Shown here: one piece after another, positions 3,101 to 23,126 of the stretch
How positions within the stretch are numbered: the stretch's first letter is position 1
How the letters are laid out: each line of letters opens with the position of its first letter
Assembly: GCA_028716945.1 (NCBI GenBank)
Contig: JAQUOT010000001.1
Coordinates: 1 to 64,000, forward strand
Source: Candidatus Nanoarchaeia archaeon
GTDB taxonomy: Archaea; Nanobdellota; Nanobdellia; SCGC-AAA011-G17; JAFCDX01
Direction of reading: 5' to 3'
Length of the DNA: 64,000 nucleotides
Made by a program: the position numbers and the translations under genes
The notes under the pieces: generated by a model
What the model saw: the letters and a program-made list of their open reading frames with translations, nothing else
Told to the model about the DNA's origin: nothing
The model's database searches: none

Positions 3101-6100
3101 CCATACTAAATCTTCTTGAGCATCTTCTACATCAAAACCATATTTATCTAAATCTATTCCCCAGGGAGCAGAACCTTCAATCTTAAATTGATTTGGTATT
3201 ACTGGATTTATGTAAGGAACATCATTCACACAATTTAAGGTTACAATTATATCTTGTGTTGCAATTCCACCATCTGAATCTTTTAAAGTTAAAGTTATAT
3301 CATCAGAACCGCATGCATTTGCTATAGGAGTAAATGTAATAACATTTAAATCAGAATCAAATGAAGTTGTAAATAATGTAGTATCTACGCCTGAAACACT
3401 CCAATCTAAATCTGAATCTGTATCTTCAATATCATTTTCATAATTAGCTAGATTTAAAATCCAAGGTGCTGCATCTTCATCTACTGTTTGGTCTGGAATA
3501 GGATTTCCAAGTGTATCTTCTATCCAAGGAAGATCATTTATTGATCTAACAGTTACTGTTAAAGTATCTTCACCGTATGATCCATCTGAATCAGTTACTC
3601 TTATTGTTATATCTTCTTGACCAAACCAATTTGCATTTGGTACAAATTTAATTGTTTTTGCAACTTTATTAAATTCAACAGCTATATTTACATTTCCAGA
3701 TGCACTCCATTCTAATTGATCAAAAGAATCTTCTACATCAGAAACATAACTATCTATATTTGTAATAGTATAATTTGTATCTTCATCAAAAATAATGTCA
3801 TGTATATCATCTAATACCGGAGCATCATTTACTGGATTTACAGTTACTGTAATGCTATCAGATCCAAATAAATTACCAATATCTGTTGCTGTGAAGGTAA
3901 TTGTTTCAGGACCACCATTCCAATTTGCGGGTGCTGTAAAAGTAATTGTTTTATCATTATTTATTTTTACTTGAACAAAATTATTTCCAGAATATGTCCA
4001 GGTTATTTCATTTAAAATATTATCAACATCTTGCAATATAGTAGGATCATTCAAACTCCAAGTTGTAGTGTAAGTTGTATCTTCATCAAAATTAATATCT
4101 GTAACTAAAATGTTTACTATTGGTGCATCGTTCATTGGAACTACAGTTACAAAAATAGTTTCTGAGTCACAAGCATTTTCTAAATCACATGCTGTAACAG
4201 TCAAAGTAGCATGACCAAAATAATCTTGTGCTAAATCATATGAAAGAGTATTATCTGCATTTATTATTGCATCAACTATTTCAGGTTTATCAGAACTTAT
4301 AGTCCAATGCATTTCTGCAGGAGTATTATCAACATCATTAACGTAATTATCTAAATCAATTTGAGGTTTTGCTGTTTCTGGCATATCTTCGTACATTTGT
4401 ACAGGAGGTATTGTAGAAACAATTGGTGCATCATTTACTGGAGTTATTGTTATAGTAAAATTATCTTCAGCATAGAATCCACCTGCATCAGTTACTCTTA
4501 CTGTAACATTTGAACTACCAACTTGGTTTAAACCAGTTGTACATTCTATCCACCTATTATCGTCTCCAAAGATTATATTATGTTCTATTTCACAATCTAC
4601 AATACCCGGATTTGTTTCTGAAACTATAGTAAATAATAAATCCTGATCTTGAGTTTCAACATCGTTTGCATATTGCCATAAATCAATTAATCTTTCATTT
4701 AATCCTGAATCTTCTTCTACAGTTCTATCAGGTAATCCTATTAATGTTGGAGGATTATTTACATAAACAACTGTTACTCTGAAAATATCTTCTGCAGACA
4801 ATCCACTAGCATCAGTTACTCTTACTGTAACATCAGAAGTTCCAAATTGATTTTGTTGGGTAGTACAATCTATCCATGCTCCTGTTGCATCATTTCTTAT
4901 AACACAACCAACAATATGCGTATTACTTTCTCTAACTATTGTATAAGTTAGTTGAGCATCGGAAGTTTCTGCATCATTTACATAATTCCATAAGTTAATA
5001 AGATTTTGATTCAATCCAGAATTTTCCATTATTCTTACATCGGGTAATAAAGGACTTATAACTGGGGCGGTATTTACTGGAGGAACAATTGTTACAGTTG
5101 AAGTATCAGAATCAACATCAGTTCCACCATTTCCATCATTTACTGTTGCAGTACAAGTTATTACATCTCCATTTGCTTCTCCAGTTACTGAAGCTAGATT
5201 TAATGTATTAGTTGCAAATGCAGCAAGACTGTATGCACCAGTTGTAGTCCAAACATAACTAATTGTAAGAATATCTCCTACATCAGGGTCTGTTGCTGTA
5301 GCTGTACAGGTTAATGTTCCATCAATTAAAACAGGATTTGGTGTTAAAGAAGCAGTTATTGTAGGAGGATTATTTGCTCCAACATTTGTTTCATTATTAT
5401 CTAAGGTATTAATACAACCAGTATCTGCAGACCAATCAATAAATCCATCTCCATCGTTATCAATACCATCAGAACATTGAGTTGCTCCATTATTTGTTTC
5501 ATCATTATCACTTGCATTATAAATTCCTGAAGAAGTATAACAACCTGCATCTTGTGCATCAATATAACTATCACCATCGTTATCAATACCATCTGAACAA
5601 GCATAAGTTATATTTAATGGTGTTACAGTTACTCTTACTGTATCTTCTGCAAATAATTGACCATCAGATACTCTTATTACAATATCAGAATAACCACTTT
5701 GTCCTGGTTGTGTTGTACAATCTAACCAAGCACCATCTACTGCAGATCTTATTACACAATTTACAATAGCAGCATTACTTTGACTAAATATAGTATAAAA
5801 TAATTGATTGTTTGGTGTTTCAGTATCATGAGCAGAATTCCAAATATTTAATAGATCTGAATTTAATCCGGAATCTTGAATTATTGTTACATCCGGTAAT
5901 AAAGGATTATAATAGGGTCTTGTATTTACAGGCATAGCTGAAATTGTAACGCTTGCTTCTCCTACTTTAACAAGAGTAGAAGATACTACTTTCCATGCTT
6001 CACATTTTGCAACACCAGAAACAGTATTAGTTGGTTGTAATGGATTAGCAGCTATATTTTGTTGTGTTACTCCAGTACCTTTCCAGTGTGCAGTAAATCC

Positions 6101-6265: not shown

Positions 6266-9200
6266 TAGTGTAATAATCTTTCAATTTGTAATGGTTTGAT
6301 TGGATTTCCTAAAACTATTGCAGCTCCAAGCTCAAAACCCTCTTTATTATAAGTTGTATTGGTACTAGGATAAACCCATTCTTTTTGATTCCAATCAGCA
6401 AATACTTTTACATACCAATCAGGAAGCAATGAGAATGAATCTTCAATACCTAAAACTGTTTTTTGTAATTCTCCATCAATAGGATAACTTCCATACGCTC
6501 TTAAAATATTTTTAGTTACTAAATCCTTATTTTTTAAACTCCATTCAAAAGTACCTACAATATTATTTCCTGTTAAAATTTTATTATTTGTCCAATCTAC
6601 ATTTTCTGTATATTGTTCCCATCCTAAACTTGATTTTATTGCAGGATCTTTAAATTCAGATGATAATCCAGCAACTGTACTAAATTGACTCATTTTTTTA
6701 TTATAAGTTTCATTATTCATTTCATCTTTTTGGTTTATATTAGTATCATCATATACAACCCCAGCATATGCTCCAACAGTTCCTGGTCCTACATTAACAA
6801 CTTGAGCATTAACATATCCAACAACTTCATTGGTATTTACTTTTTGAGTTATTTTTTGATCATACACTTTAATATCTAAAGGACTTTCTTTGTAAACATA
6901 TCCAGCAAATATTTCTGTTCCTTCTAATAAATTAGCAAATTCTCCTTTGTAGAATCCACCAACACTAAATGGTTTTTTTCTAAGTTTAACATTTTCACTT
7001 GATTCATCTTGCTGACCATATGTAAATTGAGCAGCTAATGAACTGTTATCAGTTAATTCTACTTTTCCATTTAATCTAGTTTCCCATCCATTTATTTTAT
7101 AATCATCAGAACCACCATTTTCTTTTATATTTGAATTTCCATTTATGAAAAGACCTGCTGCAGATATTCCAATTTTTGGAGATTCTGTTTTTTTAGCAGA
7201 ATTATCTTTTTGGGTTTCATCTTCTGGAATAAATGGATTTGTTGAATTATTTTGTGGATTAGTAGTTGGAGTATTTGTTTTGTTAGTATTTTTAGTATTA
7301 GGGTTTGACACATTCTTATCTTTCTTTTGAGGAGTTTGTTTTGTAGATGGATTTTGTGGTGTTGCATAGTTATCATTTTTATTTTCAGGACATTTATTTT
7401 CAGCTCCTTTTTTATTAGCTCCACAAACTTCTAATTTTCCCCCTAATTCTACTGGGATTGAATGACCCATATAATGAATAAATACAGGAGTATCTGCATC
7501 TGGACTAAAGGTTAATATTCTTGATTTAATTTCTTCTAAAGTAATTCCATCTTTCATTTCAAAAGTAGAATACTGCCATTCACTATTTTTCATATATTTA
7601 ATAGTTAATTCTTCTGTTTCGTGAGTAGCATTATAACCTGACATAGATACAGTTATATTATCGAATGATCCAACATTTCCTAAATCTAATTTTCCAGTTT
7701 TTTTATCTACTGCTTCTTCTAAAGTTTTTGTTTTATCATTTATTTTTATAAATACATTTTCTACTCTTCCTGTCAATAAATATAATCTATCAATATCGTC
7801 TTCAATTTTTGCTTCTATAACTACATCTGATGCATTTTTGATTTTAAATCTAAAAGAATCTCTTCCTATTCCTTTTTTTAATTTTTTACAATCAGTAAGT
7901 CCTCCAACTTTGTCAAGGTTACATAATCTTACTTCTTCTGTTTCTTTTGGAGCAAGTACATGATAATTTTGATAATTTCTAAATAATTCTGTTCTATTAT
8001 CTGCTGCGTCTCTAGTAGCATATTTTGATTGTGCATCATTCAAATCAATTTCTTGGAAATCACCAATGAAAGGTTTTGTTGCAAGTTTAATATTGTATTC
8101 GTCTGAAGCATTTGTTGTATCATTTTGAGTAGATTGAGATTGTTCTTGAACTGGTTTCTGTGCATTTTCTTCAGCTTGACGTTCACGCGCTTCTTTTTCA
8201 GGAGCTAGAACTGTTGAATCATCTTGTACTGTTGGTTTTGGTTCTTCTTTTGAAACAGGAACTATATTTTTTTCTTCTATTTTTTCTTCTTTTTGTTCAG
8301 AAGTTTTTACACATTTAGAAGCATTATATTTTCCTACAGAAGATAAAACATACTCTTTTCCATTGCTATCTTTACCAATTATTCCAACTCTTAAATTCTC
8401 TTGTCCAGAATAATTAGCAAGACTTATGTAAGCTTTTCCATCTTTTATTTCTTGTTTAGTTTCTTCTAAAACATTAAAAGTATTCATATCGATTAAAGCT
8501 GCTTCTAATTCTGAGAATTCTGAATTTGAAAGATTTTTATTTAATTCTATCGCATATCCATTATCAACACAGGATACACTTGCTATTCCACGTTCTGCTG
8601 CGTATAAAGGTTTGTTGTGTCTAAAAATATATTTTCCATCTTTTGTTTTTATAATTTTTTTCTTGTGTTGTTTAACTTCTTGTTTTGGTTTTTCTGTTTC
8701 TTGTGGTGCTTGTGCAAGTACTGGTTGCACAGGGCCTTGTACTGGTTGTACTGGTCCTTGCATAGGTGCTGGATAATTTGCTGTTATTGAAGGAACAGTT
8801 AATTCTTGTGCTGGCATTGGAGCAATAGGTGCTTCTTTTAATTCGCCTTGATAATTTTCTTCTTGTTTATCTTTAGAAGGAAGATAACTTCCGATAGGTG
8901 CACAACCACCCAAATGAGTACATGCTTCATAACCCCCCAAAGTAAGACTTAATAACATCGCTGCTATTACACCTGTTTTTTTAATTCTATACCAACATCC
9001 TCTAGGTTGTATTGGTGACATTGAAATATCATCAACTTTTTCTTCAAGATTTTCAGGAGCTTTTGGTACTTCTGCAGAAGGATTTATTTCGGGATTAATA
9101 TTTTTTGATGCATCTTTTATTCTATCTTCGTCTGCTTTATCTGCTCTTGCTTTTGCATTTTTGTAAACTTCATCTTCTTCAGAATGATCTATAGGAATTT

Positions 9201-16496: not shown

Positions 16497-17066
16497 ATGG
16501 ATATAAACAAAATTTCTAAAAAAGATATGGGGTATATTATAGGTTTATTTTTAGGAGACGGATATAAAAATTATAATAAAAATGATAGACATTATAGAGT
16601 AGAATTTTATTTAAATTCGTTAAAAGATTTAGATATCTTGAAAAGAATGAATCTTATTTTAAAAAAAATGGAATTAACTCCATTCACATTAAAAGATAAA
16701 AGATGTAATTCAATTAAGATTTATGTTAATTCAAAAGAATTTTTTAATTTTATTGAAAATGAAGTAAATATGTTAAAAAAATTAAAGTTAAATAAAGATT
16801 ATAAAATGGGTTTAATATCTGGATTTATAGATGCTGAAGGATATGTTGGACATGGAGATATAGTATTAACTCAAGGAGATAAACAAACCCTATTATTTTT
16901 TCAAAAAATTTGCGAAAATTATGATCTTAAAAATAGGATTTACTGGAGTAAAAGCTATGGAATGGGAAAAGGTGTTTGGAGATTAAGAGTTTCCACAACA
17001 TTTAAATACCTCTCTCATAATTCTTGTAAAGTAAATAGGATATATCCAAATAATATATCTTTATAG
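16497..17066 (+). CDS. LAGLIDADG homing endonuclease abutting initiator tRNA-Met
   Basis: 189 residues with two LAGLIDADG-type helices: YIIGLFLGDGY near residue 13 and LISGFIDAEGYV near residue 106. The acidic catalytic residues D and E are in place, so it looks like an active two-motif enzyme. It is free-standing rather than inside an intron. Its stop codon TAG (17064-17066) supplies the first two bases (AG) of the tRNA starting at 17065. A TATA box near 16469-16478 fits leaderless initiation. It probably cleaves a tRNA-linked site; the target is inferred from position only. Confidence 0.85.
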   Translation: MDINKISKKDMGYIIGLFLGDGYKNYNKNDRHYRVEFYLNSLKDLDILKRMNLILKKMELTPFTLKDKRCNSIKIYVNSKEFFNFIENEVNMLKKLKLNKDYKMGLISGFIDAEGYVGHGDIVLTQGDKQTLLFFQKICENYDLKNRIYWSKSYGMGKGVWRLRVSTTFKYLSHNSCKVNRIYPNNISL

Positions 17067-17155
17067 CAGAGTGGAGAAGCTAGGAGTTCTCGCAGGGCCC
17101 ATAAATAAGTTGGGATACCCTGAGGTCGATGGTTCAAATCCATCCTCTGCTACCA
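17065..17155 (+). tRNA. Initiator tRNA-Met(CAU) with 13-nt intron and encoded CCA
   Basis: Acceptor AGCAGAG/CTCTGCT gives the A1-U72 pair typical of archaeal and eukaryotic initiators. The anticodon stem CAGGG/CCCTG has the three G-C pairs of initiators. The D stem GAGA/TCTC and the T arm GATGG-TTCAAAT-CCATC are intact. The loop reads CCCATA...A, so the anticodon is CAT with C rather than U at position 33. A 13-nt intron (17104-17116) lies after base 37; its TGGG can pair with CCCA of the loop. A TATA-like GGATATATCC lies about 25 nt upstream, inside the nuclease gene. Confidence 0.88.
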
Positions 17156-17876: not shown

Positions 17877-18560
17877 TTATTTTTTTTGCGAACGTACCCA
17901 AGAGGCATAACCACCCCCGTTGCCATCACGGCAGAAACCAGCAACACTCAACCCGCCGACGTTGCAGTCGGAACCCAGCGCGGTATATCTTTTAACATCT
18001 TGAGTTGTAGGATTTAAAGCAAAAACATAAGGTTGATTCTTGCTTATTTTTTCTGCAACTCTTGCAACAACATCTTGTGCAAAATCTTTATCTCCAACTT
18101 GAGCTAGAATATAAGGATTTTTAACTAATTCTGAAATAGATTGACTTCCTGTCTTAAATCCATAAGGAACAACTCTCACCGAGTTATCTCCATCTTTAAA
18201 TCTTTTTAACAATTTTTTTCTATCTGAAGGCATTTTTCCATTAATATTATCATAAACTATAACATTTTCAGAACCCCATAAATTCTCTGTTGAAGTCCAA
18301 AAATAATTATTTCTAAATTTTGATAAGAGTTCTTTACAATGAGCTTCGTCTGTATTCTGCAAAGCTAAATCTACTAAAGAAAATGTTTGTGCTGTAGTTG
18401 ATCTTAATGCTTTTTCTTGAGTTATTTTATTCATAACTGTTTGATAATCATTAGGTCCTATAAAAGGTAATCCAAAAGTTATAATTTCTTTAAGGTGAGG
18501 AACATCAATTTCAATTCTAGCTACTCTTATTTTTCCGTTTCCATTAAGTGCGATTTCCAT
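17877..18560 (-). CDS. Candidate DGR target protein with hypervariable C-terminus
   Basis: 227 residues, no signal peptide. The middle (FWTSTENLWGSE, then NSVRVVPYGF) recalls DUF1566/C-type-lectin-like domains that often serve as targets of diversity-generating retroelements; this match is by eye and tentative. The last 33 codons differ sharply in composition from the rest of the gene and the window (see the variable-region entry). The protein ends WVRSQKK. A divergent promoter with BRE GAAAC and TATA TTTTTAAAC sits in the 18561-18677 gap shared with smc. No reverse transcriptase is in the window, so diversification is inference. Confidence 0.6.
   Translation of the reverse strand: MEIALNGNGKIRVARIEIDVPHLKEIITFGLPFIGPNDYQTVMNKITQEKALRSTTAQTFSLVDLALQNTDEAHCKELLSKFRNNYFWTSTENLWGSENVIVYDNINGKMPSDRKKLLKRFKDGDNSVRVVPYGFKTGSQSISELVKNPYILAQVGDKDFAQDVVARVAEKISKNQPYVFALNPTTQDVKRYTALGSDCNVGGLSVAGFCRDGNGGGYASWVRSQKK
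17888..17983 (-). other. Candidate DGR variable region (GC-rich, A-depleted)
   Basis: By count, 60 of 96 bases are G or C, against a strongly AT-rich background. On the coding strand only 9 of 96 are A. Of the 32 codons from Thr193 to Ser224, 24 end in C or T and 12 end in C, unlike neighbouring genes. This is the pattern expected when AAC/AAT codons of a template repeat are randomised to NNC/NNT by adenine-directed mutagenesis, at the 3' end of a gene where variable regions sit. The template repeat and reverse transcriptase would lie elsewhere. Confidence 0.5.
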
Positions 18561-18677: not shown

Positions 18678-21600
18678 ATGGTTACAATACAAAAACTAAA
18701 AATGAGGGGGTTTAAGTCATTTGCAAAACCAATTGAAATGTTCTTTCCTCAAGGTTTTTCTGCTATTGTAGGAGCTAATGGTTCTGGTAAATGTGTAACT
18801 AAAGATACTTCAATTCAATTAGCAGACGGCTCTTTAGTCAAAATAGGAGAATTAGTTGAAAACAAACTCAAAGAAAATTCTTATAAAAACATAGAAGATG
18901 GTTTTATCATAAATGGAGACAATACAGAAATATTAACTTTAGATACAAAAACCTTAAAGATTAAAAAGGTTCCAGTTAAAGCTTATGTAAAAAGAAGTTC
19001 ACCAAACCAGCTGATTAAAATAAAAACAAGATCTGGAAGAGAAATCACTTCTACTAAATATCATCCGCTATTCATCTTAGATAATAATAAAATAAGGAGC
19101 ATTAAAGCTGAAGAATTAAAAAAAGGAATAAAAATTGCGGTTCCTAGAAAAATTGAAACTACTCCAAAAACAAAATATTTTTATGAATTATTAGATTTAA
19201 TAGCCCCTGAAGATAAAATTTATGTTCCTTATAATAAAAAGTATAAAGAAATTTTATATAAAATTAAAGGTTATAAAGAATGGGGAGATCTTTCTAAAAA
19301 AATTGATATTCCTTTATATGTGTTAAGAGGATTGATAAATAAACAAGCAATTAATTTTTCATATCTTGTAAGAATATTAAGACAATACTATAATGATAAA
19401 GAAATAATAAAATTAATCCCACATGCAAAATCAAGAGCAAATGATAAAATTGTTTATAAATTTCCTTGGAAAAATTCTAAAGAATTATCCAGATTATTGG
19501 GATATCTACTTGCTGAAGGAAGATTGCCTCCAACATCAAACCAAATATGGTTCACAAATGGAACACAAGAAATTGTTGCAGATTATAAAAATTTAATAGA
19601 CAAAATATTTGAAGTTAATGCTACAATAAATGAATATAAACCAAATGTTTGGGATGTACTAGCTTATTCTACTTTTATAAGAACTATTTTAAACAAACTT
19701 GGAATGTCTATTGGAACAACAAAAGACAAAACAATAACAAATCTTTTCTTAAGCCATAGTTCTGATAAAGAGCTGTCAGAATTATTAAATGGATTATATT
19801 GCGGAGATGGCTATGTTTCAAAAAGTTCAATAGAAATAACAACTAAAAGCAAAAATTTAGCATTTGCAATAGAAAATATACTTTCTAGGTTAAGTATAAC
19901 TTACAGATCAAATTATGTTGTAAAAATTGCTACAAATTCTGGATTCAGTGGAGTTTATAAAACTATAACAATTTATGGAGCAGATAATTTTTTAAAATTC
20001 AATTATTATATTAAATTAAAACATAAAGCAAAACAAAAAAGAATTGAAAATTTATTAAATGCAAAAATTAATCCAAATATAGATTTATTAGAAATTAATT
20101 CTTTAATAAAAGAAATTGTAAAAGATTTAAAAATAAATGTCAAATCAACTAAGAAAACCTATCCAAGACTATCCTCTTATGTTTATAATCAATGCACTCC
20201 TTCAGTTTATGGAGTAAAACTACTAATAAAAAATATTTTTATTCCAAGAGCGCAATCACAAGGAACTCTTTCACAATCTTTAATAAATCTCTGCTTGTTA
20301 TGCAATTCAGATATTTACTGGGATGAAATAACTGAAATTAAAACTATAAACTCAAAAGAAAAATGGGTTTATGATTTATCTATAGATAAACATCATAATT
20401 TTATAGCAAATAATATAATAGTCCATAATAGTAACGTTGTAGATGCATTATGTTTTGTATTAGGTAAAAGCTCTGCTAAAGGCCTTAGAGCTGAGAAATC
20501 TGCTAATTTAATCTACAATGGGGGTAAGCATGCAGATCCTGCTAAAGAAGCCCAAGTTGACATGATATTTAATAATCAAAAAAAAGAATTAGCAATAAAA
20601 TCAGAATATGGAAATTTAGAAGAGGTAAAAATTTCTAGAATTGTAAGACAAAATGGACAAAGTATTTACAAAATAAATGATAAAACAGTAAACAGACAAG
20701 AAATTGTTGAAATGTTATCAAGTGCTTCTATAGATCCAGAAGGGCATAATATTATTTTACAAGGAGATATAATTCATTTTGCAGAAATGCGTACAGAAGA
20801 TAGAAGAAAAGTTATTGAAGAAGTTGCAGGCATTTCTATTTATGAAGACAAAAAAGAAAAGTCTTTAAGAGAACTTGAGAAAGTACAAGAAAAATTAAAT
20901 GAAGCAGGAATAATTTTAACTGAGAGAAGTGCTAACTTAAGAGAATTAAAAAAAGATAGAGACCAGGCATTAAAATATAAAGAATTAGAACAAAAGATTA
21001 AAGACCATAAAGCTTCTTTGATAAAATCTCAAATTAAAAAAAGAGAAGAAAGAAAAGCTTCTATAGAAAACGAAGTCAAAGATAATGAATCAAAGATTTC
21101 TAAAGTCAATGAACAAGTAACTCAACTAAAATCAGAAATACATAAATTAGATTCTAGTATTAAAAATATTACAGTTACTATAGAAGACAAAGGAGAAATA
21201 GAACAAAGAGAACTAAGAAAGAAGATTGAAGAATTCAAGACTAAAATTGCTAGAGATGATGAAAGATTATTAGTATGTAAAGAACAATTAACTAAACTAG
21301 ATCAAAGAAATAAACAAATTAAACTTGATTCTTCTGGAACAGATGAAAAAATATCAGAATTAAAAGATAAAAAGAAAAAAACAGAAGAAGAATTAAAAGA
21401 TTTAATCCAAGAACAATCAAGAATTTTAAAAGATTTAGAGCATTCCAAATCTAAATTTAGTGTGTCTTATGAAACAATGGCTGACAAAGCAGTAGAAAGA
21501 ATTGTTAATTTGGGTGATGAAGAAGTTTATGGAACTGTTGGAGATTTAGCTGAAATTCCAGATAAATATGCTTTGGCTTTAGAAGTAGCTGCTGGTGGAA

Positions 21601-23126
21601 GAATAAAAAGTATTGTTGTTGAAGATGATTTTACTGCTCAAAGATGTATAGATGTTCTTAAAAAAGAAAAACTAGGTACTTGTACATTCTTACCATTGAA
21701 TAAAATTAAACCAAAAACAAACAGTATGGATTTAAAAAATATAAAAGGAAAAAATGGAATTGTTGATTTAGCTATAAACTTAGTAAAATATAATTCTAAA
21801 TTTGATACTATTTTCAAATATGTCTTTGGTTCTACATTAATTATGGAGGATTTAGAAACTGCTAGAAGATTAATAGGACAAATAAGAATGGTTACTTTAG
21901 ATGGAGATTTAGTAGAAACTTCTGGTGCAATGATTGGAGGATATAGAAGACTTGGAGGTTTAGGAAAGACTTCAAGAAATAAGATAAAGAACCTTGGTAC
22001 AAGCTTAGAAGAATTAGAAAAAGAAAAATATGATATTGAAAGAAAAATATTTGAATTAAGTTCAGAGAAAAAAGGATTAGATTTACAAATAGAAAGTTTA
22101 TTTTTACCTGAAAATGACAGAGCTTTAAAGATATTAAAAGAAAATGAAAAAGAAAAGATAGAATTTACAAAAGAATTAGACCATTTAAATGATGAATTAA
22201 AAACTGCTAGAAATAATTTAAAAGAATGCGAAGAACAAGAAAAGAAATTCTTTAATAATTTTAAGAATTTATCTTCACAGAGATCAAAATATAATGATAA
22301 AATACAAGAATTTGAGACTAAAATCATAAGAGAACAAGAAAAAATAAGAAATTATGAAACTATTATTAACAATTTGAATATTACTAAAGCTAAAACTATT
22401 GGAGAATTAGAAGGTTTGGATAAAGAATTTGAAGAATTTAAAGTTGAATTTGAAGAGGGTAAAATAAAAATATTAACGAGTGTTTCTATAGATGAATTAA
22501 CTCTAAGAATAAGAGAAGATGAAAGAGCTTTAAGGAATATTGGTAATGTTAATCTAAGAGCATTAGAAATTTATGAAAATCTTGAAAAAGAATATAATGG
22601 TCTTCTTGAAAGAGCAGATAAATTAAAAAAAGAAAAAGAAGATGTTTTATTAATGATAGATGAAATTGAAAAGAGAAAGATTGGATTATTTATGAATACT
22701 TTTAATGAATTAAATAAAAACTTTATACAAATATTTTCCAGTTTAACTACAAAAGGTACTGCCCATTTAGAAATAGAAAATCCAGAAAATCCTTTTGAAG
22801 CAGGTGTTGAAATAAAAGTTAAAGTTGTAGGAAATAAATTCCTTGATATTAAGAGTTTATCTGGTGGAGAAAAAACTTTAACTGCTTTAGCATTTATATT
22901 TTCTATACAAGAACACAAACCTGCAAACTTCTATTTATTAGATGAAGTAGATGCTGCTTTAGACAAGACAAACTCAGAATTATTATCTAGGTTAATTAAA
23001 AAATACTCAGAAAAAGCACAATATATTGTTATATCTCACAATGACCATATTATCACAGAATCAGACCAATTATATGGAATAACAATGCAAGAAGGTATTT
23101 CTAAAGTAGTTAGCTTGAAGGTTTAA
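18678..23126 (+). CDS. smc: Chromosome segregation ATPase SMC, interrupted by an intein
   Basis: 1482 residues as encoded, 936 after removal of a 546-residue intein. The Walker A sequence GANGSGK (residues 32-38) is split from its Ser by the intein and resumes SNVVDAL at 585. A coiled coil follows, then the hinge (EEVYGTVGDLAEIPDKY, near 947) and a second coiled coil. The signature LSGGEK (near 1394), Walker B FYLLDEVDAALD (near 1418) and the IVISHND switch complete the head. It holds and compacts DNA loops during segregation. The mature length is below the usual 1150-1200, implying shortened arms. Its 3' end overlaps a convergent gene by 17 bases. Confidence 0.97.
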   Translation: MVTIQKLKMRGFKSFAKPIEMFFPQGFSAIVGANGSGKCVTKDTSIQLADGSLVKIGELVENKLKENSYKNIEDGFIINGDNTEILTLDTKTLKIKKVPVKAYVKRSSPNQLIKIKTRSGREITSTKYHPLFILDNNKIRSIKAEELKKGIKIAVPRKIETTPKTKYFYELLDLIAPEDKIYVPYNKKYKEILYKIKGYKEWGDLSKKIDIPLYVLRGLINKQAINFSYLVRILRQYYNDKEIIKLIPHAKSRANDKIVYKFPWKNSKELSRLLGYLLAEGRLPPTSNQIWFTNGTQEIVADYKNLIDKIFEVNATINEYKPNVWDVLAYSTFIRTILNKLGMSIGTTKDKTITNLFLSHSSDKELSELLNGLYCGDGYVSKSSIEITTKSKNLAFAIENILSRLSITYRSNYVVKIATNSGFSGVYKTITIYGADNFLKFNYYIKLKHKAKQKRIENLLNAKINPNIDLLEINSLIKEIVKDLKINVKSTKKTYPRLSSYVYNQCTPSVYGVKLLIKNIFIPRAQSQGTLSQSLINLCLLCNSDIYWDEITEIKTINSKEKWVYDLSIDKHHNFIANNIIVHNSNVVDALCFVLGKSSAKGLRAEKSANLIYNGGKHADPAKEAQVDMIFNNQKKELAIKSEYGNLEEVKISRIVRQNGQSIYKINDKTVNRQEIVEMLSSASIDPEGHNIILQGDIIHFAEMRTEDRRKVIEEVAGISIYEDKKEKSLRELEKVQEKLNEAGIILTERSANLRELKKDRDQALKYKELEQKIKDHKASLIKSQIKKREERKASIENEVKDNESKISKVNEQVTQLKSEIHKLDSSIKNITVTIEDKGEIEQRELRKKIEEFKTKIARDDERLLVCKEQLTKLDQRNKQIKLDSSGTDEKISELKDKKKKTEEELKDLIQEQSRILKDLEHSKSKFSVSYETMADKAVERIVNLGDEEVYGTVGDLAEIPDKYALALEVAAGGRIKSIVVEDDFTAQRCIDVLKKEKLGTCTFLPLNKIKPKTNSMDLKNIKGKNGIVDLAINLVKYNSKFDTIFKYVFGSTLIMEDLETARRLIGQIRMVTLDGDLVETSGAMIGGYRRLGGLGKTSRNKIKNLGTSLEELEKEKYDIERKIFELSSEKKGLDLQIESLFLPENDRALKILKENEKEKIEFTKELDHLNDELKTARNNLKECEEQEKKFFNNFKNLSSQRSKYNDKIQEFETKIIREQEKIRNYETIINNLNITKAKTIGELEGLDKEFEEFKVEFEEGKIKILTSVSIDELTLRIREDERALRNIGNVNLRALEIYENLEKEYNGLLERADKLKKEKEDVLLMIDEIEKRKIGLFMNTFNELNKNFIQIFSSLTTKGTAHLEIENPENPFEAGVEIKVKVVGNKFLDIKSLSGGEKTLTALAFIFSIQEHKPANFYLLDEVDAALDKTNSELLSRLIKKYSEKAQYIVISHNDHIITESDQLYGITMQEGISKVVSLKV
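18792..20429 (+). mobile_element. Intein with LAGLIDADG endonuclease in the SMC P-loop
   Basis: In-frame insertion of 546 residues that starts with Cys39 and ends in His-Asn before a Ser extein residue, the standard splicing junction. Block A reads CVTKDTSIQLADGS, block B TSTKYHPLF (T-x-x-H), and the C-terminal blocks read WVYDLSIDKHHNFIANN and VHN. Between them lie two LAGLIDADG-type helices, LLGYLLAEGR (near residue 275) and LLNGLYCGDGY (near 375), so it looks full length and probably homing-competent. Insertion between K and S of the P-loop makes SMC activity depend on splicing. Confidence 0.95.

Follow-up and report, generated by a model that had tools for sequence, protein, structure and literature searches.

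An AvpA-like candidate target of a diversity-generating retroelement, with no template found, in an archaeal genome with two complete retroelements

In diversity-generating retroelements (DGRs), a reverse transcriptase (RT) copies the RNA of a template repeat (TR) with errors at adenines, and the 3′ end of a target gene is then overwritten with the resulting cDNA. In the phage BPP-1, efficient retrohoming requires a hairpin downstream of the variable region (VR) (PMC3240598), and in the DUSEL4 DGRs a hairpin at this place is conserved (PMC4372165). Paul et al. 2015 (PMC4372165) also described partial DGRs of Nanoarchaeota, consisting of a target and its VR without RT, and read them as fossils or remote targets. 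The method of a large DGR survey would, by its own account, not detect remote targets (PMC8144416), so such genes are undercounted.

In this study, we analysed the first 64 kb (the window) of contig C1 in an archaeal assembly, which comprises 803,636 bases in two contigs, is 97.57% complete and is not closed. The features discussed below are the following.

17877..18560, (-) strand: candidate DGR target gene for an AvpA-like variable protein of 227 aa, identified from its ORF, its homologues and the match of its structure model to 5ioo/AvpA
17895..17987, (-) strand: putative VR, codons 192-222 of 227 and thus near the 3′ end of the gene, delimited by codon-for-codon alignment with the TR of a related genome (G002), the differences being concentrated at TR adenines
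17895..17903, (-) strand: IMH-like end of the VR, TCTTGGGTA, of the VR type GGGTA and not of the TR type GAATA, with a function suggested by PMC4372165
17880..17894, (-) strand: probable post-VR tail, CGTTCGCAAAAAAAA, which resembles the CGCAAAA tail after other VRs

Composition and predicted fold of the window gene

A sequence-only reading of this DNA had singled out the composition of 17888-17983, and our recount on the coding (-) strand gave the same figures (G+C 60/96, A 9/96, and C or T as the third base of 24 of 32 codons). Its placement of an A-poor, GC-rich segment at the 3′ end of the gene also held, although not its extent: the segment was said to be the last 33 codons, and it covers codons 193-224, which are followed by QKK and the stop. 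The G+C content of the window is 27.8%, and 96-nt stretches with at least 55 G+C are confined to 17883-17993. Away from its 3′ end, the gene contains 21-31 G+C and 33-43 A per 96-nt step. At third codon positions, C/(C+T) rises from 0.07 in the gene body to 0.48 in the GC-rich segment.

The paired VRs of this clade mostly end in GGGGTA or NGGGTA, and their TRs in GGAATA or NGAATA. The window VR ends in TTGGGTA, like the NGGGTA of paired VRs and unlike the TGGGGT motif of DUSEL4 (PMC4372165). No hairpin with a GAA loop, which is usual after other VRs, was found downstream of the window VR. Since this hairpin is likewise missing after some TR-paired VRs, such as that of G002, its absence is weak evidence against activity.

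The same reading had likened the protein to DUF1566 and C-type lectins, and only the second likeness survived, for the predicted model. A Pfam search of the protein detected neither DUF1566 nor any other domain, the sole hit being a sub-threshold one to Sa_NUDIX (E 0.075). The AlphaFold model (pLDDT 80.6, pTM 0.82, with VR blocks at pLDDT 58-71) had a single PDB match below 1e-3, which was 5ioo (E 6.3e-6, TM 0.59/0.63, full length, 17% identity in the structural alignment). This structure is AvpA, a DGR variable protein of Nanoarchaeota with a C-type lectin fold (PMC5006420), and such a fold holds for the model of the window protein. Searching a viral structure library with the model returned nothing significant.

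The stop codon of the window gene is 54 nt from a convergent gene, so that there is no TR or RT 3′ of it, unlike in its relatives. An SMC gene at 18678-23126 (+) is split at its GxNGSGK ATP-binding motif by an intein that carries a LAGLIDADG domain. A LAGLIDADG_3 ORF at 16497-17155 (+), immediately upstream of a tRNA-Ala (anticodon cgc, 17065-17155, ARAGORN), possibly encodes an intron endonuclease.

Related targets and their templates

Homologues of the window protein were found in 10 of 61 genomes by protein search, and the family was found in 18 of the 103 genomes of the order by profile search, while single-protein scans of genome-contig and viral-contig collections returned no relatives. 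The homologues come from related archaea named as Nanoarchaeota or Pacearchaeota. Of those extending to the C-terminus, the majority carry this A-poor, GC-rich segment at their end. In five genomes, a TR lies near the homologous target, and 84 of the 85 TR-VR mismatches are at template A, distributed as follows.

G040: 7 mismatches at A, 0 at other positions
G047: 18 at A, 0 at other positions, for each of two targets
G002: 15 at A, 0 at other positions
G084: 14 at A, 0 at other positions
G085: 12 at A, 1 at another position

Aligned with the G047 TR (with one codon gap), the window VR differs at 22 of 29 A positions and at 17 of 64 other positions (p 9.8e-6), and the same test against three other related TRs gave p values of 0.0002-0.0011; because the window VR is A-poor by observation, these values are partly dependent on that composition, and the independent part is the conservation of non-A positions (47/64 kept, as compared to 7/29 A positions). 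Together with the homologous TR-VR pairs and the AvpA fold match, the A-position test bears out the central proposal of the sequence-only reading, and the view that the segment is a DGR VR in the 3′-terminal part of a gene of C-type-lectin type is well supported by both sequence comparison and the predicted model.

An automatic scan of 61 RT loci returned 45 best repeat pairs with 632 mismatches at A and 57 at other positions, a few of these pairs being clearly not TR-VR pairs, and the named relatives of the RTs are mostly from 'Candidatus Pacearchaeota' and 'Nanoarchaeota' genomes. No DGR RT was detectable in 9 of the 18 genomes that carry the window gene family (84-97% complete); missing assembly could account for some of these nine, not obviously for all.

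The homologous target of G002 (C112, L034, 10179-11167 (-)), with its VR and TR, has all 15 mismatches at A, and an SMC gene lies near it, as one adjoins the window gene. This contig of 16.3 kb carries no RT and the RTs of G002 are on contigs C92 and C50, so a TR and an RT can be apart. In the DGR cassette on C92 (L052, 2676-4727 (-)), the VR protein apparently exceeds the TR reading by two residues, and template and target may therefore have drifted apart. In G016, a DGR target on C16 (L054, 1891-5765 (+); VR 3887-3966, TR 6710-6789; 18 mismatches at A and one other) is flanked by an AAA_5 ATPase gene and by a large gene, VWA-like by eye and with no Pfam match, an arrangement reminiscent of MoxR/vWA conflict systems (PMC10907252). 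The DGR RT of G016, near the start of this contig, is broken into two frames.

Retroelements of the same genome and the search for a template

The genome contains two RVT_1 reverse transcriptases, both outside the window, and no TR was found inside it, as the sequence-only reading had stated for both components. Each RT sits in a full DGR cassette (L012, L013) with a target gene carrying a VR and with a TR, and the TR-VR mismatches are all at template A (10/10 and 13/13). The RTs carry GNLTSQ, which we take to be the form of the QGxxxSP motif seen in DGR RTs, and YVDDF, taken as the catalytic motif. Among solved structures the closest to them is 8ub7 (E 8e-42), presumably the Bordetella phage DGR RT. 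These cassettes show that DGR machinery exists in this genome. Like the window gene, they have an A-poor, GC-rich VR towards the 3′ end of the target with a GGGTA-type end, whereas, unlike the window gene, they have a TR and an RT alongside. The window protein shows no confident relation to their target proteins.

The suggestion that the window gene is a remote target was not sustained by the elements at hand: when the two TRs were searched with A read as N, each matched only itself and its own VR, its one partner, and neither matched the window VR. The two intact DGRs serve other genes. A genome-wide search for a template next to a DGR RT, which had been proposed as a check, succeeded for the RTs and failed for the template. 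BLAST and two A-tolerant patterns allowing 3 mismatches detected no cognate TR in the assembly, which is 97.6% complete. A looser scan, with positive controls scoring 48 and 59, remained at control level in the window and nine other loci of this genome, including both RT loci, and an order-wide pattern search, which took in the 102 other genomes, gave, beyond the VR itself, only A-rich matches, at or below the reversed control. A weak BLAST match near the RT on C2 (C2:42812-42828), which at first resembled a template, is A-rich and falls on the stop codon of the query (133-149). The window gene is accordingly found without a complete cassette: there is no DGR RT at the locus and no cognate TR was found in this non-closed assembly.

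Two further members of the window gene family are present on C2. One, at 127509-128213 (L082 1453-2208 (+)), is a second VR-like target, with GC 45/93, A 16/93 and 23 of 31 codons ending in C or T in its VR-like segment; it has no TR within its 3.7-kb locus and ends in TTTTGGAATC instead of GGGGTA. The other, at 104354-104968 (L014 4346-5005 (-)), is a paralogue without the GC-rich, A-poor 3′ segment.

Present state of the variable region and comparison with known systems

That the window VR descends from adenine-directed rewriting off an AAC/AAT-rich template is supported by homology and by the pattern of differences. The gene's own template, and its RT if there was once one in cis, may then have been lost or detached, and the present VR would most likely be a frozen variant of a protein that may bind a ligand. 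We favour, with some reserve, an AvpA-like DGR target that has been cut off from its template (and from a cis RT, if any) and is now a single frozen variant; the missing post-VR hairpin and the nine family genomes in which no DGR RT was detectable also speak for it. Several points weigh against it. The third-position C/(C+T) of the window VR is comparable with that of several TR-paired VRs and shows no drift towards the AT-rich background, as would be expected if rewriting is recent or still under way. The hairpin is absent after some TR-paired VRs as well, the assembly is not closed, and part of the A-position signal follows from the A-poor composition itself.

In the main rival reading, a third TR, located in sequence missing from the assembly and using its own RT or one of the two known RTs in trans, may still rewrite the VR. 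Besides the codon usage shared with TR-paired VRs, the two-contig state and 97.6% completeness of the assembly, the presence of RTs in the genome and the G002 pair on its RT-less contig leave room for such an active target. However, the TR searches of the assembly were negative with only ~2-3% estimated to be missing, the only two RTs each already belong to a cassette, and the post-VR hairpin is missing. We consider continued rewriting rather unlikely, and a frozen or recently cut off target more likely than an active one with an unassembled third cassette. It is very improbable that the cognate TR is present but diverged beyond the reach of the 3-mismatch searches, since in nearly every other pair the mismatches are almost confined to A and the looser scan, which covered the window and nine other loci, stayed at control level, despite the G002 cassette on C92 with its apparent two-residue difference. 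Least credible of all is a GC- and glycine-rich C-terminal domain that arose by transfer or codon selection, for although the genome has no detected TR and glycine-rich coding alone can give A-poverty, homologues with the same segment of 31-32 codons have nearby TRs, the window keeps the non-A positions of the G047 TR and not its A positions, and the fold matches a solved DGR variable protein.

The frozen target may not be an isolated case. It is tempting to speculate from the 9 of 18 RT-less genomes that, across the order, DGR-made proteins often outlive the retroelement, with RT and template lost and one variant fixed, or are targets of rewriting in trans from elements that the genome does not contain, and that the window gene is one of many; at present we hold this wider view to be doubtful. 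The gene family lends itself to testing whether DGR products freeze after element loss or are rewritten at a distance. In an archaeal genome of 0.8 Mb, the window documents a template-less DGR target alongside two intact DGRs.

The window VR would follow the VR/TR/IMH logic described for the BPP-1 DGR of Bordetella phage, a phage system whose required post-VR hairpin is not seen here (PMC3240598). With AvpA (5ioo, PMC5006420), the window protein shares the predicted fold over its full length and a VR near the C-terminus, but AvpA has 46 residues after the VR and the window protein five. The partial DGRs of DUSEL4 (PMC4372165) have reported cis-acting elements, whereas neither hairpin nor TR was found for the window gene; like it, they combine a VR bearing marks of adenine-directed mutagenesis and no RT on site with complete DGRs elsewhere in the genome. 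Orphan VRs have been known in archaea since 2015, and the window gene is a further case of that kind.
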